Of a stretch of 21,711 nt of DNA, positions 1 through 21,622 are shown piece by piece (positions within the stretch are counted from its first letter, which is position 1; each line of letters begins with the position of its first letter). The translations under genes and the position numbers were made by a program. The notes beneath the pieces are model-generated. The model searched no databases. It was not told the origin of the DNA and worked only from the letters and a program-made list of their open reading frames with translations. This DNA is from a virus: the IMG/VR virus record IMGVR_UViG_3300017743_000161, positions 1-21,711 of that record; one strand, given 5' to 3'.

Positions 1-3000
1 AAATTTTTCTGTTTCATCAACTGCTCTTAATAATCTGTTCATTGTAGATGTAAAATATCTAAGATCTTTTTTAACATCAATTCTAATGATCCGTGTTCCA
101 GTAAACAAGGCTAGTAATTCATCTGACAAATTAACTGGTTTTCCACCTTTAGTTAAATCTAATGACAAAGCATCACCAATTTTTTGACCACTAGATACAA
201 AACCAGGTTTAACACCATCTAATACGTGGATTAGTGATTTAATAAATTTATCTCCAAGGTCATCTGATTGTGTGTACACAGATCCACCCCCATCTTTCTT
301 ACCATTTCTTGTAGTCACATCTATAAATCTGTCAAACCCTAACGGCTCTGATACAAACGGTTCTAAATAAGATAATACTGGTCCTTCTTCTCCAAACATT
401 AAGTTCATTACAAACTGTTCTGTTTCTTGTGGGTTTAGATTTTGTTTCTGTGCTTGTGCAATAGCTGCATCTAGTGGTTCAAACAAACTATCGTAAGGAC
501 TAAAGTATGAAAAATTAATTGCAGCACTTTCGCCATTCTTCCAACCCTTAACAGCTAATAAGTTTTTATTTGCATCCCAAGACGCAGCTGACGATCTACT
601 GTATGCTGCCCACTGTGAGCTTGTAGAATTTGTTAAGAATTGTGAAAGTTCTGTAAACCCTTTTCCAATAGCATAACTAGTTAAAAATGCACCTGTCAAT
701 CTTCTTATACCCATTTGTTGTATGGCTCTGTTAGGGTGTGCTGATTCTTTTAATCCCGTACTAATAATGTTTGCACCTGTTCTAAGTATTTCTGCAGGAA
801 ATGATATAAAGTTTCCAAGTGGTAACTTTCTTAATTGTTGGATAAGAGGTGGTACTTTACTGTATGTTGGATACGTATCTCTTAATAAAAATGCTGACGC
901 TTCTTCTATCGCATCATCATATGTTTTTTTAACTCCCGTAACGGTATTGATTGGATCAAATTCTTTACCCATGTATCTAAACCATTCTTTAACATCATCT
1001 AAACTTTTTAATGCTTGGTACAATTGTGATTTACCAAATTCGAAACCATAACCTTTCCATAAATTATCACCACCTGCGTATAGTCTTGCAACTTTATCTG
1101 TAGGTGCCATCTTCATTAATCTATCAAATAATTTATCACTAGTATTTATTATATTGTTTTTTATATCTTGAGTTACAGCTTTTAATTCTGCTGCTACAAC
1201 GTTTTCATCCCACACACCTAGTCTAATTAATTTTTCTACATAATTATTAAATTCTACTTCATCAATTTTATTACCACCTGCTTTAAATATATCTCTTGCA
1301 ACAATCTGCATAGCATCTGTTACACTAGCTTTGCCACCTATGTGTCCATTCATTAATGCAAAGAATGAAGCTGACGTTACATTTCTAACTTGTGTTTGTG
1401 GTGAGTATAATGTTTTACCAATCTGTACACCTACTTTAGATTGTAACATGAAACGATAAAAAGCATTTTCAACAAGTTTATCTAAAGAACCACCCACACC
1501 TGCAAAACTTTCTACATACTCAGGTGATGCCCACTTGTTTAATAAATCTGATTTCATTATACCAAGTCTTGGTACACTTTTAATTTGTTGTGCTCCGATA
1601 AAACCTGCATTAGTTGCATCCTCTGCAGTATTAAATAACCAACCATTCTTTAAACCTGATCTTGCAATGTAGTCTGCAGCTCTTTTATTAGCCATGGATG
1701 AAATAGCTTCTGCCGTAGTGTAACCAACAGATGCTTTTAAATTTCTTTCAGGTCCTAATAAATTTTTTATTGCATCTGGTAATTCTTCACCTGTTTTTAA
1801 AAATTTAAATTTATCATTTTGTAGTATACGAGTTCCTATATCCCTTAACTGTACTATTGGTGATTTACCTTCGGCTTTACCTGTTCTCAATATATCTTCT
1901 GCATGCATTTTAGCAGACTCGATGTAAGCTTGTTCTGGTTTTAATTTTGGAAAAGTATTTCTTGCGGATTCTTTTAAGTTTGTATTTTTTTTAATTACTT
2001 TTTCTACTAAAAAATCAACAGCCCTGTTCATAATTTTTTCATCAGGAACATAGTTAGGGTTTCCAAATGTTTTAAAAGATCTAATTAAATATTTACTAAT
2101 ATTATTTATTTCTACATTACCCAATTCTTTTGCCAACTCATCAGCTTCTTTTCCTCTAGGTAATACTTTTTTAAACTCAGTCATAATACTTTTAATATCT
2201 TTTGCTAAATCTTTGGCTCCTGCCTGTAGTTCTACTGGTAGGTCATCTAGTTTTCTTTGACCTTTTAAATATTCATCTATCATATCTAAATAATATTTTT
2301 GTATTGGCGATGATGTAGTTGCTCCGTTATAATCGTCTTGAAATTTTTTAGCTAAATTGTATGCAGTTTTTTCTAAACCTTCATAAGTTCTATCTATTTT
2401 TCTAGCTCTACCTTTTATATATAACTTAACTTGTTCACTTACACCCTCTATGTCTTTAGGTTGTTTACCATAAGATCTAAACCATGATAAAAAATTATCT
2501 ATTCTTTTAACATTTCTATTTACTTTGTTAGGTGATGTTACAGATTTTAATCTCCAATCTTTAAATGGTGGTAGCTGTGTTACGAACTTGCTTCCTAAAC
2601 CTGTACCTGCTGTAGCGTTTACTAATAATGGTGCTACTAATTTATTTATAGTAAATTTACCTGCTTTTTGTAATGTTTCAGATCCTGCTTTTGTTAGAGG
2701 TGATACTAATTTATTACCTAACACTAACTTAGCACCTTTCATTACTGTTTTGTCAATTGCTTTAGCACCTAGTTGCGCTACACCTACACCATATTTATTA
2801 ACCATTAATGGTTTTCCTAAATATTTAAAACCTAGTTGTGTAAATTTACCAACTAATGGAAAACCCCCACCTATTAATGCACCTTCGGCACCGTATTTAA
2901 TTCTGTTTCTAAATTCCGCTCCTGCTTTTTTTCTACCAGTTAAACCTTTAGTGTCTTCTGCATCTACAAAAAAAGATTGTCGACCAGGATTAGATGCTAT

Positions 3001-3726
3001 AAAATCTGTAGCTCCAACTATCGTTGCACCCTCTGCAACTCTCGTTGATACCTGACTAACTTTTCTAAGCTTACCACCTTTAACAGCATCTGCTGCTTTT
3101 TTCATTTTAACCACTGCGGGTATTCTTCCTGCAATTTTTGCAATAGCTGTACCAGGTATACCGTATTGTGTAAGCAAAGATGTAACCTCTCCTCTCCATG
3201 TTTCAGGACGAGTAGGCTCTCTTTCTTTCATAACTTTTTCAAAGTCAGACATAAAATCTGTGTTGAAAGCTAAGTCTGTTCCTGCAAATAATAATGAACC
3301 TAAACTATTTTGTAAATCATATACACCAGAACTAATACCTTTTGCTATTTCATCTAGGCCAGTTGTGTAATCTCTTTCTTGTGTGATCTCTTCGTTATTA
3401 ATTTTAAAACTAGGAGCCTTTGCATCAGGTAAAGCTTGAATATCTTTTATTGATGTCATGTTTACTTTGCCTTTAGTCATGGCTGCTATGGCTTGTCCAA
3501 TTTGTGAGTTAGGACTTAATGTATTATATAATTCTAAAATACTTTTAGGGTCAGGCATAGCTAACCATTTGACAGGTCTTTTAGGTTTTGATTGTCCTGC
3601 TAATTCTTCTTGTATTCTAAATTTAATTTGATCTAAGTCTAAGGGTTTGGGATCTCTTATCTCTATATCAACAGCTTCATCGTCTTTGACATCTTTGAGA
3701 AATCGTTCGTAGGCTGTTTCTGCCAT
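1..3726 (-). CDS. Giant putative internal virion protein, C-terminus cut off by window edge
   Basis: The frame stays open from an ATG at 3726 to the left edge, giving 1242 codons without a stop, so the 3' end lies outside the window. The start follows a good ribosome site (CAGGAG) and sits one base after the stop of the 375-aa gene. I do not recognise a catalytic domain. Visible features are a charged N-terminus, a Gly-rich hydrophobic stretch near residues 215-235 (YGAEGALIGGGFPLVG), a long Lys/Glu-rich helical middle, and a hydrophobic segment near residues 960-990 containing LPLGNFISFPAEILRTG. Large, helix-rich proteins at the end of a podovirus structural operon are often internal virion or ejection proteins, and the position after three other candidate virion proteins fits. 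That role is inferred. The conserved LPLGNFISFPAEI block recalls large structural proteins of marine podoviruses, from memory only. Certain as a gene, unsure of function. Confidence 0.85.
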   Translation of the reverse strand, partial: MAETAYERFLKDVKDDEAVDIEIRDPKPLDLDQIKFRIQEELAGQSKPKRPVKWLAMPDPKSILELYNTLSPNSQIGQAIAAMTKGKVNMTSIKDIQALPDAKAPSFKINNEEITQERDYTTGLDEIAKGISSGVYDLQNSLGSLLFAGTDLAFNTDFMSDFEKVMKEREPTRPETWRGEVTSLLTQYGIPGTAIAKIAGRIPAVVKMKKAADAVKGGKLRKVSQVSTRVAEGATIVGATDFIASNPGRQSFFVDAEDTKGLTGRKKAGAEFRNRIKYGAEGALIGGGFPLVGKFTQLGFKYLGKPLMVNKYGVGVAQLGAKAIDKTVMKGAKLVLGNKLVSPLTKAGSETLQKAGKFTINKLVAPLLVNATAGTGLGSKFVTQLPPFKDWRLKSVTSPNKVNRNVKRIDNFLSWFRSYGKQPKDIEGVSEQVKLYIKGRARKIDRTYEGLEKTAYNLAKKFQDDYNGATTSSPIQKYYLDMIDEYLKGQRKLDDLPVELQAGAKDLAKDIKSIMTEFKKVLPRGKEADELAKELGNVEINNISKYLIRSFKTFGNPNYVPDEKIMNRAVDFLVEKVIKKNTNLKESARNTFPKLKPEQAYIESAKMHAEDILRTGKAEGKSPIVQLRDIGTRILQNDKFKFLKTGEELPDAIKNLLGPERNLKASVGYTTAEAISSMANKRAADYIARSGLKNGWLFNTAEDATNAGFIGAQQIKSVPRLGIMKSDLLNKWASPEYVESFAGVGGSLDKLVENAFYRFMLQSKVGVQIGKTLYSPQTQVRNVTSASFFALMNGHIGGKASVTDAMQIVARDIFKAGGNKIDEVEFNNYVEKLIRLGVWDENVVAAELKAVTQDIKNNIINTSDKLFDRLMKMAPTDKVARLYAGGDNLWKGYGFEFGKSQLYQALKSLDDVKEWFRYMGKEFDPINTVTGVKKTYDDAIEEASAFLLRDTYPTYSKVPPLIQQLRKLPLGNFISFPAEILRTGANIISTGLKESAHPNRAIQQMGIRRLTGAFLTSYAIGKGFTELSQFLTNSTSSQWAAYSRSSAASWDANKNLLAVKGWKNGESAAINFSYFSPYDSLFEPLDAAIAQAQKQNLNPQETEQFVMNLMFGEEGPVLSYLEPFVSEPLGFDRFIDVTTRNGKKDGGGSVYTQSDDLGDKFIKSLIHVLDGVKPGFVSSGQKIGDALSLDLTKGGKPVNLSDELLALFTGTRIIRIDVKKDLRYFTSTMNRLLRAVDETEKF

Positions 3727-12003: not shown

Positions 12004-13083
12004 TTATCTAGCAGTTGTAGGCACAAAATTACTACCTACTAATGGATTTTCGGCAAAAGCCATGTAAATCATATCTGCTCCACTTGCATTGTGACCAGTT
12101 CCTGAACTTGTTATTTTAAAACCATTTGAAACAAAATCAAAACTATCGTAACTATCTTCTTCTCCATTTGTATTTGCAAATAATTTTTTATTAACAACAT
12201 TTGATGGATTTCTTACATCATCACATATTAACCAATCACTTGTGCCATTAATTCGTTTTACCATAACAAAAGCAGGTTTAAATCCGGTATTAACAAATGG
12301 GCCATTTGTACTTGCATTACCAGTATAAGAACCAAATTTGCTGTAACCTTGTTTTTGTGCGAAACAGTAAGCAACTAAATTACTTCCATCTAGATTGGTT
12401 CCTTCATAATCTCCTACACTAAATACAGTTGAGTTTATAGTAACACTTGAGTTACCCCAAACATTTGTATCATTAGCTTTTGCTGCTGTTGTGTTTAAAT
12501 ATACTACTCCAGGAGCTGCTTGAGATGTAAAAGAATCTTTATGATAAACAGACCAGTTCCAAGCAGCACTTCTATTTTTAACAATAATTGCATCAGGTGT
12601 AGCTGATAAATTATGAGGAATTGTATGTCCTGCTGTTCCATTACCTCCATAACCAATAATTGAAAAACCTGCTGCAGTATTTACTGAACCTGTATAACTT
12701 TTGCTAGTACCACTACCTGTAGTATTACCAGATACAGCACTACCCGCTTTCCAGTTCCAAGCAACATAGGTTTTTCCATCTTGGTTGTTTGAGTTTGCAT
12801 TTGGGCCTGCTGTATCAGCACCTAACACAAATCCATCAGCATTAGTAGATGTAACTGTATCAGTATTTGTAATTTCAGCAGAAGTTGAATTTGATATTAA
12901 TTGTTTTAACATTCCTGAAACTGAATTGTGTAATGAATGATCGTAACCTGCATCTCCTCTTTGTTTAACCCATATAAAATCTGGTTGATTTCCTACACCA
13001 GAAATTGTTTGTCCACCTGCAGTACCTGTGTAAGTAACTGTATTAAAATAATCTGATGGTTTGTCTATTGTTGAATAACTCAT
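12004..13083 (-). CDS. Tail-fibre protein of three related modules (second copy)
   Basis: A 359-aa protein made of three versions of one module of roughly 110 residues, of the type catalogued as DUF7483 in marine phage fibres. Each has a Y-TG-x-(G/N) strand, a GF-x-PDF-x-(W/V)-x-K start, an NT-x-x-E region and a DGF or NGF turn: near 1-113 (from YFNTVTYTG), 130-243 (GFSIIGYGG) and 250-350 (FGSYTGN). Each module ends in an AWNW, AYCFA or YMAFAE motif. It is a clear paralogue of the 347-aa protein at 14585-15628, with the identical run AYCFAQKQGYSKFGSY and the same C-terminal -TAR ending. Four bases separate its ATG from the preceding fibre stop, so the two are coupled. Likely part of the adhesin that touches the host surface; exact receptor unknown. 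Confidence 0.82.
   Translation of the reverse strand: MSYSTIDKPSDYFNTVTYTGTAGGQTISGVGNQPDFIWVKQRGDAGYDHSLHNSVSGMLKQLISNSTSAEITNTDTVTSTNADGFVLGADTAGPNANSNNQDGKTYVAWNWKAGSAVSGNTTGSGTSKSYTGSVNTAAGFSIIGYGGNGTAGHTIPHNLSATPDAIIVKNRSAAWNWSVYHKDSFTSQAAPGVVYLNTTAAKANDTNVWGNSSVTINSTVFSVGDYEGTNLDGSNLVAYCFAQKQGYSKFGSYTGNASTNGPFVNTGFKPAFVMVKRINGTSDWLICDDVRNPSNVVNKKLFANTNGEEDSYDSFDFVSNGFKITSSGTGHNASGADMIYMAFAENPLVGSNFVPTTAR
12325..12374. repeat. 50-base perfect direct repeat, copy 1
   Basis: This 50-base segment is identical to 14918-14967, in the paralogous gene 2593 bases away. It encodes AYCFAQKQGYSKFGSY at the join between the second and third modules. Flanking sequence diverges immediately on both sides, so identity at every codon third position across 16 codons is notable. 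Confidence 0.95.
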
Positions 13084-13087
13084 AATT

Positions 13088-14557
13088 CTATCCTATTAAA
13101 TTTAAATTTTTTGTACATAAACTATAAAAACCTTCGGGAACTGCATATTCAAAATTACCTAGTCCACTAGAATCTACGTTTCCTGATGAGATTGCGTAAG
13201 TTGGAGATCCAAAATTAAAATCAAAACTTCCTTGATTTAAACCAGCTGAGTTTATGTATTGATTATTAGTGTATAAAAGTTGACTATCTGTCGTAGTATT
13301 TATCAAAACACCATTTTTATAAAACACTACAGAACCATTTTGTGCATTAAAGGTAATACCAATAATATCATTTGTTGTAAAAGTTGCTACACCAGAAGTG
13401 TTACCCTGACCAGATAAACCTTCTCTGTAAATGTATCCAGTACTAGAATATACAATTCTACCTGCATCTACAGCACTATGAACACCACCATCTACACTTG
13501 CTAAAGTTATTCCAATAGTAGCATAAGTAGTTGCTCCAGTGCATTTTGCTTCCCAATACCATTTACCGTTTGCAAAAGCCATGTTTCCAAGAACACTGTT
13601 GTCTGTATTACCGTTTGATGCTGAAAGATTACCGTTTGATAAAGCTATATTAGAACCTTTTGATAATGCGTTTAAGTTTGCAAAATTATTTGTGCAACTA
13701 TCAATAGATTGATCTATGCTTGTTAAATTATTAACCGTGTAGTTATTTCCATTACCTGATACATCTGTTCCTAAAGCACCACTATTTTGAAAATTTAAAT
13801 AAAATCCATTGTTGCCAAATGTTAAACCTGTAACAATTTTAGGAACCCAAATTCCTGTTTGAGAATCAAATTCTCCAAATGATGACGAGTCTAATGCTTG
13901 ACCATCTGCATAAACTACTTCTGCTAGATAACCACTATAATAAGCTGATGTTCCTACTGCACCAACACTATGAACAGTACCTGAAGCAATACCAATTGGT
14001 GTTAAATCATCATTTTGAGGGGGATAACTTGCTGTAGCAAAAGAAGTTTCTCTTACACCATTAACATACATCCTTACTCTGTCTGATGCTGTGCTATCTG
14101 TTGTGTTAACCATTACTACGATATTGTACCACGCACTCGTGTCACGAAAAACCCTATTTGTTTTGACTGAAGTAGTACCACCTGAACTTGGAAATGAAAA
14201 AAATTCTAATTGATCTGATGCACCAAAACGAATCATATCTGTTTGGTATCCATCTGATGCTCTAGAAGCTGAAAATACTTCTTGAATTACACCTAATGTT
14301 GATCTTTTTAACCAAGCTGATACTGTTAATATTTTTTTTGAACTAGCTGTTGTAGAATATGTTTTTGTTAAATAATCTGAACTTGCAGTGTTAAACCTAC
14401 ATGAGTTATCAACTTGAAAATTATTTAAAACTACTGGCCATGTTCCTTGTCTTTTGTAATTTATTGCATCGGATAATTTCCATACTCCAGAAGCTGATCC
14501 GAAAGCTCCCGTGGGTATATTATTTGGTCCTATTATTCCGCCGTTTTGTTTTGACAT
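13088..14557 (-). CDS. LamG + SPRY-like tail-fibre adhesin (second copy)
   Basis: A 489-aa protein starting MSKQNGGIIGPNNIPTG. Residues about 45-235 form a LamG / concanavalin-like jelly-roll: CRFNTASSDYLTK, a VSAWLKR strand, the WYNIVVMVNT core strand, then RVRMYVNGVRETSF and a YLAEVVYADGQALD strand. Residues about 285-460 look like an SPRY-type beta sandwich: LSNGNLSAS, GKWYWEAK, TIGITLA, and DIIGITFNAQNGSVVFYKNG. Both folds are common carbohydrate- or protein-binding modules, so a receptor-binding fibre role is likely. The C-terminus (EYAVPEGFYSLCTKNL) is conserved with the 494-aa paralogue at 15628-17112. It is followed at once by the 359-aa fibre gene. A weak ribosome site (AAGG) precedes the ATG. 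Confidence 0.84.
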   Translation of the reverse strand: MSKQNGGIIGPNNIPTGAFGSASGVWKLSDAINYKRQGTWPVVLNNFQVDNSCRFNTASSDYLTKTYSTTASSKKILTVSAWLKRSTLGVIQEVFSASRASDGYQTDMIRFGASDQLEFFSFPSSGGTTSVKTNRVFRDTSAWYNIVVMVNTTDSTASDRVRMYVNGVRETSFATASYPPQNDDLTPIGIASGTVHSVGAVGTSAYYSGYLAEVVYADGQALDSSSFGEFDSQTGIWVPKIVTGLTFGNNGFYLNFQNSGALGTDVSGNGNNYTVNNLTSIDQSIDSCTNNFANLNALSKGSNIALSNGNLSASNGNTDNSVLGNMAFANGKWYWEAKCTGATTYATIGITLASVDGGVHSAVDAGRIVYSSTGYIYREGLSGQGNTSGVATFTTNDIIGITFNAQNGSVVFYKNGVLINTTTDSQLLYTNNQYINSAGLNQGSFDFNFGSPTYAISSGNVDSSGLGNFEYAVPEGFYSLCTKNLNLIG

Positions 14558-14584: not shown

Positions 14585-15628
14585 TTATCTAGCCGTAACA
14601 GGGGTTCCCGTACTTGATGTAAATGGAAATTCTGCAAACGCCATGTAGATGTAGTTTCCACTCGAAGCATTATAAGAAGAATTGTCTGATCTTAATTTCA
14701 TGCCATTAGATAATAAATCTATATTTAAAGACGATGATGTGGTTTCTGCACCATTTGTATTTGCATAAAGTGAAGCGTCATTACCATAAGTTGCATTAAA
14801 ATCTCTTTTTGTATCATTAATTCCCCAATTTCCTGTGCCACCTGTTTTTTTAACCATAACAAAAGCTGGAGCAAATCCTGTATAAACAAATACACCATCA
14901 GAAGAACCATTACCAAGATAAGAACCAAATTTGCTGTAACCTTGTTTTTGTGCGAAACAGTAAGCAATCATTGTTCCTGAAGAGTTTGTGTCTCCATTAG
15001 TTCCTACTGTAAAAAGTGTTGATGAAGGAGTAGTGTCATTCCAGTATGTAGTGCTAGTGTCAAATGCTTGAGTATCATTTAAAGCCATAACGCCTGTGTT
15101 ACCTAAAGACGAATGATACACACCCCAATATCGTCCAGAGTTAGTTCTTGCTTTTGTAATTATAACATTTGGTGCAACTCCTAATCCATGTCCGATTGTG
15201 GCACCAGCACTTCCTGTACCTGTATAAGACACAATACTAAATCCTGCTGTTGTGTTTACTGAAACTGTAGAATTTATAGAACCTGCTGTATTAGATGAAC
15301 CTGTACCATTTGCTAACCAGTTCCATGCTGCAAATGTAGCACTATTATCATTAACATTTCCATTAGAACCTACTGCAAATCCATCAGCATCAAAACTTGT
15401 AACCCCGGTAGCATCTGTAACTTCTATATCATTAGTATTTGCGTGCAAATGTTTAGTAGAACCTCTTACGGCATCTTGGTTCATATGGTTTCCTGTAGCA
15501 CTTCTTTTTTTTATCCAAGAATAATCTGGTTGAAATCCAACTCCAGTGATAGATTGTGTAGAACCATTACCTGTATATAATACTGTATTAAAATAAGTTT
15601 CTCCCTTATTGATAGTTGTATAAGCCAT
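14585..15628 (-). CDS. Tail-fibre protein of three related modules (first copy)
   Basis: A 347-aa protein composed of three versions of the DUF7483-type module, near residues 1-107, 125-235 and 240-340. Recognisable elements are YFNTVLYTGNG / GFSIVSYTGTG / FGSYLGNG at the starts, GFQPDYSWIKKR and GFAPAFVMVKK in the strands, and AAWNW / AYCFA / YMAFAEFPF at the ends. It has the same architecture as the 359-aa protein at 12004-13083, sharing AYCFAQKQGYSKFGSY and the -TAR C-terminus, but the second module differs substantially. Its ATG overlaps the stop of the 494-aa fibre gene (TAATG), with a GGAG ribosome site inside that gene. Probably assembles with that protein on the tail fibre; the partnership is inferred from coupling and from the cassette being duplicated as a pair. 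Confidence 0.82.
   Translation of the reverse strand: MAYTTINKGETYFNTVLYTGNGSTQSITGVGFQPDYSWIKKRSATGNHMNQDAVRGSTKHLHANTNDIEVTDATGVTSFDADGFAVGSNGNVNDNSATFAAWNWLANGTGSSNTAGSINSTVSVNTTAGFSIVSYTGTGSAGATIGHGLGVAPNVIITKARTNSGRYWGVYHSSLGNTGVMALNDTQAFDTSTTYWNDTTPSSTLFTVGTNGDTNSSGTMIAYCFAQKQGYSKFGSYLGNGSSDGVFVYTGFAPAFVMVKKTGGTGNWGINDTKRDFNATYGNDASLYANTNGAETTSSSLNIDLLSNGMKLRSDNSSYNASSGNYIYMAFAEFPFTSSTGTPVTAR
14918..14967. repeat. 50-base perfect direct repeat, copy 2
   Basis: Identical to 12325-12374. It lies at the same position in the paralogous fibre gene, at the boundary between module two and module three. Perfect identity in otherwise diverged genes could come from recent gene conversion or serve as a recombination site. 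Confidence 0.95.
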
Positions 15629-17112
15629 TATCCGAACTCCGCTAGGTTTTTTGTGTTTAAAGAATAATATCCACTAGGTACTGCATACTCAAAGTTTCCA
15701 TAGCCATTACCATCTGTATTACCTGATGAGATTGCGTAAGGTGGAGAGCCAAAGTTCCAATTAGATTTACTTCCATTATATTCGTGTGTTGCTATCATAT
15801 TAATATTACCAGAAGTTAAATTTAAAACTGAACCTGTGCCTGTAGCACCACTTGTAGGGTCGCCACTATTATACCAAGTTCCATTATTACCTATATAAAA
15901 TTTTCCATTAACTGCATCTAAAGCATACATAATTATATTATCATTAGCAGGTGCAGTTATAGATATATTTCCATCACTTGAAACTAAAGTTGACAAACCC
16001 TTTTGAATATAAGCATTTAGTTGAAATGCTCCACCACTTGCACCATTCATAGTTCCTTGATTTACTGTTTCCCAATCTTTAAAAATTCCTGCTTTAGGAT
16101 AATCAACATGAGAACCTGTTATTTTCATTTCCCAATACCATTTACCAGAAAAAGCAATAGGTAGTGTAACTGTTGACATTCCACTATCTGTTGCAGTATT
16201 TCCTGTTGACACTAAATTACCCTCTGAAAGAGTTGTCTTTGAACCATTACTTAAAGGATTTAATGTTGCATAATTAACTACAGGATAGTCAGTTGATTGA
16301 TCTACTGATGTTAAACTATTAACTGTAAAGTCATTGTCGTTACCCGATGAATCTTCCCCTAACGCTGCAGCATTTTCAAACTGCAAATTAAATCCATTAG
16401 TGCCAAAGGTTCCTGTATAAGGAATTGGGGTCCAAACTCCATCAGAGTTTGAAACTCCGAATGATGTTTGATCAAGAGCTGTTCCATCGATATATACAAA
16501 TTCTGCTAAATAACCACTTAAGAAATTATTACTTGTATCATAAGTTCCCACATAAATATTTGTATTAATTGTAAGATCTTGGTTTTGACTAGGATATGTT
16601 GCTGTACTAAATGATGTTTCTTGAACTCCATTAATATACATTTTAAATCTATCTGCCTCTGTGCCTTGTGTTGTATCAACTGCTAAAACTATATGATACC
16701 AAGCAGAAGCATCTCTAAAAACTCTATTTGTAGTAAAGTTCATCTTATCTACTCCACTTACTGCTGCATAAGCAATAAAGGTATTGTCGGTTAAAAAAGC
16801 AATAGAAATTCTACTACTAGAATCTTGATAAAAACTAATTGGAAATTGATTGTCTCCAGTTGCTAAAGATCCTCTTTTAATCCAAAAACTTATTGTAAAT
16901 GTTTTTGTATTTCCAGATGTCGAAGATGTCGAAGCTTTATTCAGGTAAGTATTTGTTTCAAACCTAGCAGAGTTAGTTGTGAATAATGCTCTTTGAGGCC
17001 AAGTGCCATTTACTTTTGCTTCGTATTGTTCTTCTTGTTGCCAAACTCCAGAAGCTACTGTGCTTGTTGGATCGTTTACAACACCAATAATTCCACCGTT
17101 GTCGCTAGACAT
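15628..17112 (-). CDS. LamG + SPRY-like tail-fibre adhesin (first copy)
   Basis: A 494-aa protein starting MSSDNGGIIGVVNDPTST. Residues about 45-245 form a LamG-like domain: ARFETNTYLNKAS, FTISFWIKRGS, WYHIVLAVDT, RFKMYINGVQETSF and YLAEFVYIDGTALD. Residues about 285-470 form a SPRY-like sandwich: TLSEGNLVSTGN, GKWYWEMKITGS, NIIMYALDAVNGKFYIGNNGTW and SNWNFGSPPYAISSG. The C-terminus reads EYAVPSGYYSLNTKNL. The N- and C-termini, the domain order and many core strands match the 489-aa protein at 13088-14557, while exposed loops differ, as expected if the two copies recognise different ligands. A good ribosome site (AAAGGAGAATC) follows a 39-base gap. Most likely receptor-binding fibre; the ligand is unknown. 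Confidence 0.84.
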   Translation of the reverse strand: MSSDNGGIIGVVNDPTSTVASGVWQQEEQYEAKVNGTWPQRALFTTNSARFETNTYLNKASTSSTSGNTKTFTISFWIKRGSLATGDNQFPISFYQDSSSRISIAFLTDNTFIAYAAVSGVDKMNFTTNRVFRDASAWYHIVLAVDTTQGTEADRFKMYINGVQETSFSTATYPSQNQDLTINTNIYVGTYDTSNNFLSGYLAEFVYIDGTALDQTSFGVSNSDGVWTPIPYTGTFGTNGFNLQFENAAALGEDSSGNDNDFTVNSLTSVDQSTDYPVVNYATLNPLSNGSKTTLSEGNLVSTGNTATDSGMSTVTLPIAFSGKWYWEMKITGSHVDYPKAGIFKDWETVNQGTMNGASGGAFQLNAYIQKGLSTLVSSDGNISITAPANDNIIMYALDAVNGKFYIGNNGTWYNSGDPTSGATGTGSVLNLTSGNINMIATHEYNGSKSNWNFGSPPYAISSGNTDGNGYGNFEYAVPSGYYSLNTKNLAEFG

Positions 17113-18316: not shown

Positions 18317-19564
18317 TTATGCTGTTTTAGTTGTATATCCTGTACTATTTTTAGGTGTCTTGGTAGTATACCCTGTACTATCTTTAGGTGTAATTTTTCC
18401 AAAGTATTTAAGAATAAGATCATCATTTAATTCAGTTGTTGCTTGTACACCGGTTAAAGTAAGGTCCATTGAAAATACAAAACTTAATGAGCCTACTGCA
18501 GATGTAGCACTAACCCCGGATAACGGAACTCCTATTCCAGAAACCAAAGATCCTACAGAAGATGTCGCTGATACTCCTGTTGGAGTTACAAATGTTGCAG
18601 TTTCTTCTATTAAATTTCCTACTTGTGTATTTACTTGTCGTCCTGTTAAACCCATTACATCAGCGGGAGTAATAGAACCAACTTCAGAAGTCATTCCTAA
18701 ACCTGTTAATCCAATAGCATCTGAAGTTGAAACTGTTCCTACACTAGTTGTTGCACTTTGACCTGTTGGTACGACTACAGGACTTATAATAAAACTTAGA
18801 CTACCTACAGCAGAAGTAGAACTTAATCCTGTTAAAGATGCAATTGTTTCTGGTGTAGCTACTAATGATCCAAGACTAGATGTTAAACTTAATCCTGTTG
18901 GTTGAACTAATTTATTAAATGAATCTCCATAAGGTTCTTCACCCCAACCGTTTCTACCCCAACCAACTAATGTACCTGCATTATCAAAATCACCTACTTC
19001 AGATGTAGCTGACACACCTGTTAAATCTACAACGGATAATTGACCTGAAATTATAGAACCTACTGAAGAAGTTGCTAATTGACCTGTTGGTATAACAGTT
19101 TGTATATCAGTAACAGTAACGCTTCCAACGCTTGAAGTTGCAGACTGTCCACTTAAAACTATTTCAACAGGACCTTGATCACCCCATGCATCAGTGTTCC
19201 ATGCCCACATTCCATAACTGTTATCGTCAACAGTATTTGCCTGTCCACCCATTCCTGAATGAGCTGTACAATAATAATAAAGAGTTGGTGCACTAGCAGC
19301 TACTACAATTTGAGTGTAAGCTCCAGCATTACCTGGGCTGCCATTTGTAGTTACGCCTGTTGTGTATTGTGTACCACCACTATGTGTACCACCACTTGTT
19401 GTTGAAAATCTTAAGGGATGACTACTGTTTGAACTATCTGATTGGTCAAATTTATATGTACCATTTTCTGCTAAATTTAAAGTAGCTTGTTGTACACCAT
19501 CTATAAAATATTTATTACCGCCGGCATTAGCTACCGTTACTGTAAAAGTTCTAGTAACGGACAT
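18317..19564 (-). CDS. Cupredoxin-like virion protein with eleven LTG-SATS-VGSL repeats
   Basis: A 415-aa protein in three parts. Residues 1-110 resemble a cupredoxin domain (YFIDGVQQATLNL, then HPLRFSTTSGG and YYYCTAHSGMGG). His49, Cys99, His102 and Met105 occupy the type 1 copper ligand positions with amicyanin-like C-x2-H-x2-M spacing. Residues 120-390 hold eleven copies of a 12-13-residue core, (L/P)(T/S)G-x-SATSxVGSL, joined by linkers of variable length. Aromatic linkers (WAWNTDAWGDQGP and WGRNGWGEEPYG) occur before copy 1 and before copy 4. The C-terminus carries two tandem units of PK(D/N)STGYTTKT. The repeat region probably makes a beta-rich fibre or head-surface protein. Metal binding is inferred from residues only. 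The protein type is widespread in marine phages, function unproven. The ATG follows GAGGT after a 12-base gap. Confidence 0.83.
   Translation of the reverse strand: MSVTRTFTVTVANAGGNKYFIDGVQQATLNLAENGTYKFDQSDSSNSSHPLRFSTTSGGTHSGGTQYTTGVTTNGSPGNAGAYTQIVVAASAPTLYYYCTAHSGMGGQANTVDDNSYGMWAWNTDAWGDQGPVEIVLSGQSATSSVGSVTVTDIQTVIPTGQLATSSVGSIISGQLSVVDLTGVSATSEVGDFDNAGTLVGWGRNGWGEEPYGDSFNKLVQPTGLSLTSSLGSLVATPETIASLTGLSSTSAVGSLSFIISPVVVPTGQSATTSVGTVSTSDAIGLTGLGMTSEVGSITPADVMGLTGRQVNTQVGNLIEETATFVTPTGVSATSSVGSLVSGIGVPLSGVSATSAVGSLSFVFSMDLTLTGVQATTELNDDLILKYFGKITPKDSTGYTTKTPKNSTGYTTKTA
18323..18388 (-). repeat. 33-base tandem repeat, two copies, at the 3' end of the cupredoxin-like gene
   Basis: Two adjoining 33-base units (18323-18355 and 18356-18388) encode the 11-residue unit PK(D/N)STGYTTKT twice, differing by Asp/Asn and several silent bases. 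The unit is the final segment before a C-terminal Ala. Silent divergence shows it is not a very recent slip. Confidence 0.9.
18421..19156 (-). repeat. Eleven degenerate protein-coding repeats (LTG-x-SATS-x-VGSL)
   Basis: Protein-level repeats of 12-13 residues with variable linkers (about 8-12 residues, longer between copies 3 and 4). The glycine, the Ser/Thr pair and the V/L-G pair are the most constant positions; copies 8 (LTGRQVNTQVGNL) and 11 (LTGVQATTELND) are the most diverged. DNA similarity between copies is low, so the repeats are old and kept by protein selection. Confidence 0.85.
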
Positions 19565-19576
19565 CCGTCGCTACCT

Positions 19577-20014
19577 CTACGCTATACGAAGGATTGCGTT
19601 TGATGCGTCTGCTGCTGGGAATTGAATTGTAAAAGTTCCACTTGATACAGTTTTATCTCCACCAAATGCGATTGCACAAACTGCTCTATCAGCGTTTGTA
19701 TCATTATATATTAAACAACCATTAGCTGTAAATGAAGCAGAAGTATAACTTATATCTGCAAAGTCACAACACGCTGTGTCAGTTGATAAAGCTGGAGTTA
19801 CACTTGTAAGTGCTTTTCCACCAGCAACATAAGCAGATCCTGATGTGTTAGAAATTTCGTTTGTAGAATTATATACTGTAGTTGATTTATTTAAAGTAGC
19901 ACTACTTGTATATAAAGCTAATTTAAAACTGTTTCCAGATGATGCTGTAAAATTGTGTAAAGCTTGTAAAACTTCTGCTTTAAAACTGTTACATACTGCT
20001 GATGTTATTGCCAT
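19577..20014 (-). CDS. Conserved small phage structural protein, 145 aa
   Basis: A 145-aa protein of a widespread but unnamed phage family. The start MAITSAVCNSFKAEVLQALHNF is a conserved helix; it is followed by FKLALYTSSATLNKSTTVY, a segment around AYVAGGKALTSV, the strand CDFADISYTS and a C-terminal beta region (GCLIYNDTNADRAVCAIAFGGDKTVSSGTFTIQFP) ending AILRIA. Relatives occur in tail or head-completion regions of many environmental phages. Its place directly after the adaptor fits a small head-tail or tail-surface component, but I know of no assigned function. A clear ribosome site (TAGGAGAAA) precedes the ATG after a 16-base gap. There are four cysteines (Cys8, two adjoining near residue 86, one near 98), uncommon in this operon. 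Confidence 0.8.
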   Translation of the reverse strand: MAITSAVCNSFKAEVLQALHNFTASSGNSFKLALYTSSATLNKSTTVYNSTNEISNTSGSAYVAGGKALTSVTPALSTDTACCDFADISYTSASFTANGCLIYNDTNADRAVCAIAFGGDKTVSSGTFTIQFPAADASNAILRIA

Positions 20015-20030: not shown

Positions 20031-20783
20031 TTATTGAGGCGCTGACTCGATTGGAATTCTTATTGTACCATCCGTGTAATCGTCTCGTCTTCTTCTTCCA
20101 ACTTGCATCGCTGCAAACTTTTGTAGTTCAGTTTTATATCTATTTTCATATAGTGTCAACATATCTGTTGGACCTTTTAAAAACATAAATGCTTCTACTA
20201 AACATGCATATAATAGACCTTGAGGAAAGTAATTACTTAAATAAGTATTAGAATCACCATCTCCACCAGAACCTAAACCTGTGGGCATTGCGTTATAGTG
20301 AATAATATATTTATAATTTTTATCGGGTGTTGGAGCTACATATATAGCACCAGACGTAGCTGTATTAGCTCCTGTTGTTGCACCACCAAACATTGAATAG
20401 TATTTAGGAAGTCCTGTAACATCTTGTGCAGCAGAGCCACCTGCAGTTCCTGTTAAATTACCAACATATTCTGACATAAAAGTTTGATCACGTTTTTCTA
20501 ACCATATTCCTTGTCCATTTGTGTTTGCTGTTGATTCATATACTTCTATACCTCTAACAAACAATAATTTTGTTGGCATTGTAATTGTATTAAAATCTGT
20601 TGCAAATTGAGCTTCTGCTTGAAGTCTGTCTGAGTCCATTGGAAGATCTAAATTAATTCTATTTTGTGCAGCCATAATAAAACCATCTAAAATAGTTGTA
20701 GTAAATACAGTAGACCCAACTTCAGTATAGTCTTGAATAGCTTGTTTTAATGTAGTGTAATTATAACTTGTAAGTCCTGACAT
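20031..20783 (-). CDS. Head-tail adaptor protein (SU10 adaptor-like)
   Basis: A 250-aa protein resembling the adaptor family that docks on the portal and forms the head-tail joint in podoviruses and SU10-like phages. The N-terminal third is helical (LKQAIQDYTEVG, FIMAAQNRINLDLPMDSDRLQ), with the characteristic AQNRINLDL stretch, followed by a beta region LLFVRGIEVY, an inserted Gly/Thr-rich loop and YKYIIHYNAMPTGLG. The final part, YFPQGLLYACLVEAFMFLKGPTDML then YENRYKTELQKFA, is the helical ending of the family. The C-terminus has a basic RRRR patch at about 230-233, plausible for contact with DNA or portal. Its start is two bases from the preceding stop. Assignment is by motif pattern rather than by search. 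Confidence 0.78.
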   Translation of the reverse strand: MSGLTSYNYTTLKQAIQDYTEVGSTVFTTTILDGFIMAAQNRINLDLPMDSDRLQAEAQFATDFNTITMPTKLLFVRGIEVYESTANTNGQGIWLEKRDQTFMSEYVGNLTGTAGGSAAQDVTGLPKYYSMFGGATTGANTATSGAIYVAPTPDKNYKYIIHYNAMPTGLGSGGDGDSNTYLSNYFPQGLLYACLVEAFMFLKGPTDMLTLYENRYKTELQKFAAMQVGRRRRDDYTDGTIRIPIESAPQ

Positions 20784-20785
20784 AA

Positions 20786-21622
20786 TTAAGCTCTATCATT
20801 TACGGGTCCAATTGTACACTGAAAACCGCCTCCTGTTGCTGTGCTTCCAGCATTAGATACTAAAGGCACTGTTATAGAATTAAATTGTTGTTCTGTTGCT
20901 TGTGTTCCGTTTGGTAATGTAGGGCCAACTTCTACAGTAGTTGCAATTGCTGTTGCTAAATATGATCCAAAAACTTTTGCTCCTGTAGCATGAGTTGTTG
21001 CTATAGTATTAGATGGAGTTATTCCTCTAAAAGGTGCAGCTGTGCCTCTTGTTAATCCAGATAAAACTCCTGTGCCGGTATTGTTACCTGTGTATTGAAT
21101 TGTTTCATTTATGTATCTTCCAAAAGTTGCACTAGTTGAATCTTGATTTACTTTTTCTATTACAATAAAACCAGCGTTTGGAAATGCTGCAGAACTGGTT
21201 AAAGTTAAAGTGTTAACTGTATCATTAATTGCACCATTTAAAGTTGTTTCTAATTCTAAAGTTGCAATTGCAACACCCCCTACTATTTGTTTAACAGATT
21301 GAAATCTAACATGAGATGTTCCTTCGTTAATTTGATTAGAAGGATAAGACACACTTAAAGTTTGAGATCCAGCTGTTGTAGTAAATGGATTGTTAGGTAA
21401 AATATCTTGTACTGGAAATTCTGTTCTTGCAGGTCTTGCATTTTTTAATCCTTGTGGATCTGCTCCTACAGGATGTGGCTCTAATTGTGGTTGCTTAGGT
21501 TCAAATTCAGAGTTATGTACTAAAGCTCCGGTCCATTCTTTTACCATTTCTTTATATGGAAAAGCTGCGCCTGATCTATCAGAGATTGCTAATGCTCTAT
21601 TTCCTTTTGCAAATCTAGCCAT
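20786..21622 (-). CDS. Phage structural protein sharing a module with the stabilisation protein, 278 aa
   Basis: A 278-aa protein starting MARFAKGNRALAISDRSG. Residues 1-75 are a conserved block in marine phages (ISDRSG-x-x-FPY-x-EMV-x-EW, HNSEFEPKQPQL, ADPQGLKNARPAR). Residues 76-130 are beta-rich (NNPFTTTAGSQTLSV). Residues about 132-219 carry a module (NTLTLTSSAAFPNAG, ETIQYTGN, LSGLTRG, TTHATGAKV) with the same order of elements as residues 232-290 of the 737-aa protein. The C-terminal end is Thr/Gly-rich. It sits immediately before the adaptor and just after an unknown gene. Probably a minor virion protein near the head-tail joint; no enzyme motif is seen. Its ATG overlaps the preceding stop as TAATG. 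Confidence 0.78.
   Translation of the reverse strand: MARFAKGNRALAISDRSGAAFPYKEMVKEWTGALVHNSEFEPKQPQLEPHPVGADPQGLKNARPARTEFPVQDILPNNPFTTTAGSQTLSVSYPSNQINEGTSHVRFQSVKQIVGGVAIATLELETTLNGAINDTVNTLTLTSSAAFPNAGFIVIEKVNQDSTSATFGRYINETIQYTGNNTGTGVLSGLTRGTAAPFRGITPSNTIATTHATGAKVFGSYLATAIATTVEVGPTLPNGTQATEQQFNSITVPLVSNAGSTATGGGFQCTIGPVNDRA

Follow-up and report, generated by a model that had tools for sequence, protein, structure and literature searches.

The window, by which we mean the whole stretch of 21,711 nucleotides that was analysed, comes from the part of a podovirus-like phage genome in which the virion genes lie. The phage is related to the Pelagibacter phages HTVC027P and HTVC023P and to phage 023Pt_psg01, and its host probably belongs to the SAR11 bacteria. 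A 278-aa gp65-like protein, an SU10-like adaptor, a phrog_644 protein, a 415-aa protein and a 228-aa tail-type protein are encoded in the same order as gp65 to gp69 of HTVC027P. The features referred to below are as follows, A1 being an alignment of 24 diverse phage copies of the domain under study, made after setting aside one truncated copy and four second copies with degenerate sequences.

18317..19564, minus strand: 415-aa CDS with an N-terminal cupredoxin domain and a repeat tail (ORF translation; synteny with HTVC027P gp68)
18425..19153, minus strand: repeat tail, residues 138-380 (repeat count; beta strands recur in the model)
19229..19564, minus strand: cupredoxin (type 1 copper) domain, residues 1-112 (AlphaFold2, PDB neighbours, relatives)
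19250..19252, minus strand: codon of Met105, predicted axial ligand (A1 alignment, family conservation)
19259..19261, minus strand: codon of His102, predicted copper ligand (A1 alignment, family conservation, codon counts)
19268..19270, minus strand: codon of Cys99, predicted copper ligand (A1 alignment, family conservation, codon counts)
19418..19420, minus strand: codon of His49, predicted copper ligand (invariant in A1)
19577..20014, minus strand: 145-aa neighbour, phrog_644 (order as HTVC027P gp67)
20031..20783, minus strand: SU10-adaptor-like protein, head-tail connector region (PF24175, 1.8e-19)
20786..21622, minus strand: 278-aa gp65-like protein (gene order, relatives)

The start codon of the 415-aa CDS is preceded by a GAGG-like site, and gene order and relatives suggest that the product is a virion protein. 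The syntenic gp68 of HTVC027P contains TGxxxTxxLG-type repeats and GWG motifs, and no cupredoxin domain; nor did one turn up elsewhere among the virion genes of that phage. In the window protein, the repeat tail is made of 11 copies of TGxSATSSVG at a spacing of about 20-22 residues, with GWGRNGWGEE-type inserts between them, and it is probably a fibre or solenoid rich in beta structure. Modelling of the full-length protein gave a poor result (pLDDT 48.6), with beta strands recurring along the tail at a pLDDT mostly below 55, and for this reason the tail is called beta-rich and nothing more. The extreme C terminus (18317-18380) is a short tandem repeat (DSTGYTTKTPKNSTGYTTKTA), while several relatives end in GSNTSYTDVA. 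No export signal was found in the 415-aa protein, whose N terminus leads directly into the first strand of the domain. Elsewhere in the window, a DUF7483 protein and a similar-looking 359-aa neighbour (12004-13083 and 14585-15628) alternate with two LamG/SPRY-like or virion-structural proteins (13088-14557 and 15628-17112); these gene pairs are probably duplicated receptor-binding or fibre genes.

A previous sequence-only reading of this DNA had claimed, for the interval 19200-19564, a virion protein with a complete type 1 copper ligand set. The interval agrees with the domain as delimited here (residues 1-112, 19229-19564), and the codons of His49, Cys99, His102 and Met105 were all checked against the sequence; the ligand loop reads YYYC-TA-H-SG-M-GG, that is, C-x2-H-x2-M.

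The AlphaFold2 model of the domain, based on 70 family sequences, is confident (pLDDT 91.9, pTM 0.86) and has nine strands, including 36-40, 51-54, 95-99 and 107-112. In the model, His49 lies directly ahead of strand 51-54, Cys99 closes strand 95-99, and His102 and Met105 are located in the loop ahead of strand 107-112. The modelled placement of the ligands is the canonical cupredoxin layout, so that structure prediction, proposed along with the original claim as a way to check it, returned a cupredoxin with the four residues at the type 1 ligand positions of its strands and loop.

When the model was compared with the PDB using Foldseek, copper nitrite reductase, rusticyanin and multicopper oxidases ranked first. 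In VIA-align, the N-terminal cupredoxin domain of the nitrite reductase of Hyphomicrobium denitrificans (2dv6, 6tfo) scored Z 10.0 with 2.6 Å across 103 residues, and rusticyanin and two-domain laccases scored Z about 8. The Hyphomicrobium domain is likewise a cupredoxin attached to a larger protein, but it shares 19% identity with the phage domain and is part of a secreted enzyme rather than of a virion. At the sequence level, a PDB search with the single window sequence gave only noise, whereas the family profile matched copper nitrite reductase (9e-4), pseudoazurin (5e-3) and, at a lower level, plastocyanins. The copy in the second domain of a Prochlorococcus phage P-HM1 protein matches plastocyanin directly (4.9e-5), and two members gave weak matches to the NCBIfam plastocyanin and amicyanin models. 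The Pfam and NCBIfam search with the window domain returned no family match, to cupredoxins or otherwise. Membership of the cupredoxins is thus indicated by the ligand set, the Greek-key beta-sandwich, the modelled strand placement and the sequence relation through the profile.

The likeness to amicyanin that had been noted from the sequence stands in part. The C-x2-H-x2-M spacing of the loop is indeed that of amicyanin, but in fold the nitrite reductase N-terminal domain, rusticyanin and laccases are closer. The phage domain shares the ligand order His...Cys-His-Met with plastocyanin, amicyanin and pseudoazurin, to which it is related through profile and single-copy matches; these small blue-copper proteins, however, are free periplasmic or lumenal carriers with export signals, which the phage domain does not have. 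The His-to-Cys distance is mostly 45-51 in the relatives with all four ligands, among the matches listed, against 39 in amicyanin, and the first His, usually followed by Asn in small blue-copper proteins, is followed by Pro in 290 of 302 such relatives among the matches listed. Two other assignments were considered and rejected for the window domain. It has no match to the amicyanin model TIGR02657, which matched 2 of the 24 A1 relatives weakly (best 0.0059); and no immunoglobulin-family Pfam model matches the window protein, the fold matches being cupredoxins. Within A1, the immunoglobulin-type matches are limited to weak ones of Ig_GEX2_N to 2 members, the best at 0.0023.

The invariant columns of A1 are exactly F39, H49, C99, H102 and M105. 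The set was then much enlarged; three of the IMG/VR scans each gave at least 600 stretches, and a profile search across all the fetched loci gave 310 distinct full domains, overlapping IMG/VR loci being counted as distinct sequences. The ligands, whose free loss among homologues would have spoken against a copper site, are not freely lost: all four are kept in 302 of the 310 among the matches listed, the remaining eight being two Met to His substitutions and six domains lacking the Cys-His-Met end. Among the four-ligand relatives in the matches listed, 301 of 302 have a Cys-to-Met span of 7 residues, and in 300 of 302 the domain has no Cys besides Cys99, which disfavours a disulphide role. Dereplication at 80% left 111 sequences with the ligands among the matches listed, and in these the four ligand columns take conservation ranks 1-4. 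This contrasts with the rest of the domain, since relatives drift to about 16-30% identity while the ligand columns stay (for representatives dereplicated at 50%, mean pairwise identity is 31% and the minimum 16%). Among the matches listed, the codons are split between synonyms (CAT/CAC 156:146 at position 49, 182/120 at position 99 and 162/140 at position 102), and it is therefore the identity of the residue that is held, at the protein level.

Because a profile containing the ligands is biased towards ligand-bearing copies, the search was repeated without the Cys-His-Met segment, using a profile that stopped before Cys99 and loci fetched by peptide seeds without that segment. Among the matches listed, 276 distinct domains could be scored, of which 264 have C-x2-H-x2-M, one has C-x2-H-x3-M and 11 have neither, so that the motif is kept in 265; in the loci fetched without the segment, it is present in all 38 scorable domains among the matches listed. 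The 11 exceptions are two Met to His copies and nine domains that form the second copy in a large virion protein of cyanophage type (about 1180-1365 aa). Seven of these nine were read and show an insertion of about 60 residues and a graded loss of ligands, some having His49 with displaced Cys and His and some having none, while a ligand-bearing first copy stays in the same protein wherever this was checked. From these sequences, ligand loss is restricted to one type of paralogue. Second cupredoxin-like domains were seen at about residue 760-1010 in L101, L092, L095, L100, L091, L262, L263, L267 and L268. In L320 and L322 (about 2977-3291), the loop reads C-x2-H-x2-H, the sole substitution of the axial Met in an otherwise complete site among the matches listed.

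The domain is not confined to this phage. Using tblastn, it was found in 53 of 50,697 phage records; where these give an origin it is marine, and they include cyanophages, pelagiphages, Methylophilales phages and marine single-cell virus contigs. More than 500 IMG/VR stretches contain relatives. Among cultured phages, the domain is carried by Pelagibacter phages HTVC028P and EXVC032P Baldr and by Synechococcus phage S-TIM5. It may lie at the start, in the middle or at the end of tail fibres, of a neck-type protein and of other virion proteins of marine phages. In 023Pt_psg01 it is located at the N terminus of a gp64-like neck-type protein; in at least 33 distinct IMG/VR ORFs, by a rough motif-based sorting, it is on the C-terminal side of a gp65-like protein; and the myovirus copies, going by the annotation, are internal to tail fibres, to products of the baseplate gene region and to further virion proteins. 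The occurrence of the same domain on different virion proteins and at different positions is the behaviour of a modular virion decoration domain, and these varied positions and carriers point to a graftable display module. The gp65-like protein of the window (20786-21622) lacks the module that relatives have at their C terminus, and on this comparison of sequences adjacent genes seem to exchange the module.

A scan of GTDB genomes gave 26 loci, several of which look like phage contigs and others like genes for cellular surface proteins, and all four ligands are kept in 26 of 26 full domains. The latter include a lipoprotein-like protein with an apparent lipobox from Marine Group II archaea (L360), Prochlorococcus proteins in which the domain is accompanied by ends that by eye resemble DUF4214 (L368, L370 and L372), and large adhesin-like proteins of Bacteroidetes (L355-L357). 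In the Marine Group II loci L360 and L361, the domain is C-terminal and about 50% identical to the phage domain.

In existing annotation, the domain sits inside PHROGs families described as tail fibre or unknown, and the copies of P-HM1, P-HM2 and MED4-213 are annotated as immunoglobulin domains (PF07686). Our literature search, with most subscription journals outside its reach, found no paper linking cupredoxins with phage virions. The fold is already known; the new element is the recruitment of a cupredoxin domain as a virion module.

The explanation that we consider likely is that residues 1-112 are a cupredoxin in which the type 1 (blue) copper site is complete, used as a movable module on virion parts that are exposed or act as connectors, and that copper locks it as a display module. 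In the window, the module stands at the N terminus of a fibre-like protein with repeats, whose gene follows shortly after that of the head-tail adaptor. Copper binding itself, the time of loading and a display or adhesion role are inferred. The protein would be made in the host cytoplasm without metal and built metal-free into the particle; copper would then be acquired from the host envelope, or from seawater once lysis is done, and would lock a small, disulphide-free beta-sandwich as a stable display module, which may in turn touch a cell surface. We think that copper mainly stabilizes a small adhesion or decoration domain that takes up its metal once it has left the cytoplasm; docking by means of copper in particular would be speculative. 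Some points do not favour this explanation, namely the missing Pfam or NCBIfam match for the window sequence, Pro instead of Asn after the first His, the lack of an export signal, and the survival of some cyanophage second copies that have lost the ligands. The conservation in the sequences supports a predicted type 1 copper site that is retained by selection in a module presented on particles and on cell surfaces.

Several other readings were weighed against this one. It is improbable that the domain is a metal-free immunoglobulin-like or beta-sandwich decoration domain whose conserved residues are purely structural. Such a reading would agree with the PF07686 labels of earlier annotation and with the persistence of cyanophage second copies that have lost their ligands, but a structural role needs no invariant His, Cys, His and Met amid that much drift in identity, an immunoglobulin disulphide is impossible with a lone Cys, and cupredoxins lead the fold matches. 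Ig-like decoration domains of tailed phages are beta-sandwich modules grafted onto many virion proteins, but they differ from the phage cupredoxin in topology and have neither a metal site nor the His/Cys/His/Met set. The persistence of eroded copies does indicate that the scaffold can serve without copper, and therefore the site presumably brings a specific benefit to those copies that have kept the ligands. We regard it as equally improbable that the site holds another metal (zinc, or Cu(I) only) or that Cys99 is a reactive thiol linking proteins. The Met to His variants L320 and L322 would suit another metal, but two His, Cys and Met in a cupredoxin ligand loop are the textbook type 1 copper set, and for a reactive thiol His49, His102 and Met105 would be unneeded.

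A redox role, in which the domain would carry electrons in a host that receives or expresses it, as with cyanophage plastocyanin, appears very improbable. The fold is typical of electron-transfer proteins, and blue-copper domains are familiar as components of enzymes or as free carriers of electrons; here, however, the domain is fused to virion proteins without a signal peptide and occurs in phages of unrelated hosts. Plastocyanin appears in cyanophages as petE (PMC3037559), which is likewise a blue-copper protein encoded by marine phages but is a separate small metabolic gene acting in the infected cell, not a virion module. Rather more room, though still the standing of an unlikely alternative, is left for a copper 'Trojan horse', in which the copper of the virion, or the face of the copper site, is recognized by a copper-handling surface protein of the host. 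The location of the module on tail fibres and connector proteins and the span of its phage relatives across several ocean host groups fit this idea, and there is a parallel in the HxH tail fibres of T4 (gp37), cyanophages and Alteromonas phages such as R22Y, a metal site on a tail protein for which an ecological role has likewise been proposed, the iron in the fibres being recognized by siderophore receptors (PMC11705849). In those trimeric fibres, however, iron is held by His-x-His and there is no cupredoxin fold, and a single receptor does not agree with a module that also occurs at the neck and in the surface proteins of cells. In its broadest form, which we hold to be unlikely, phages that are abundant in the ocean and infect SAR11, picocyanobacteria and OM43-type hosts would carry copper in type 1 sites, use the metal or the face of its site for docking to host-surface proteins that handle copper, and constitute an unrecognized pool of strong copper ligands in seawater.

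With the assignment as a cupredoxin, copies so far labelled as hypothetical, tail fibre or immunoglobulin acquire a fold and a function that can be tested, and the eroded second copies of cyanophages offer a natural metal-free control. The fold and ligand set of free carriers and enzymes recur here in a graftable module that is found on marine phage particles and also on bacterial and archaeal surface proteins from the sea, and the particles of these phages probably expose sites for copper. If the sites do bind the metal, virions would both carry and ligate copper in the ocean, and the stability of these phages or their binding to the host could hinge on copper.
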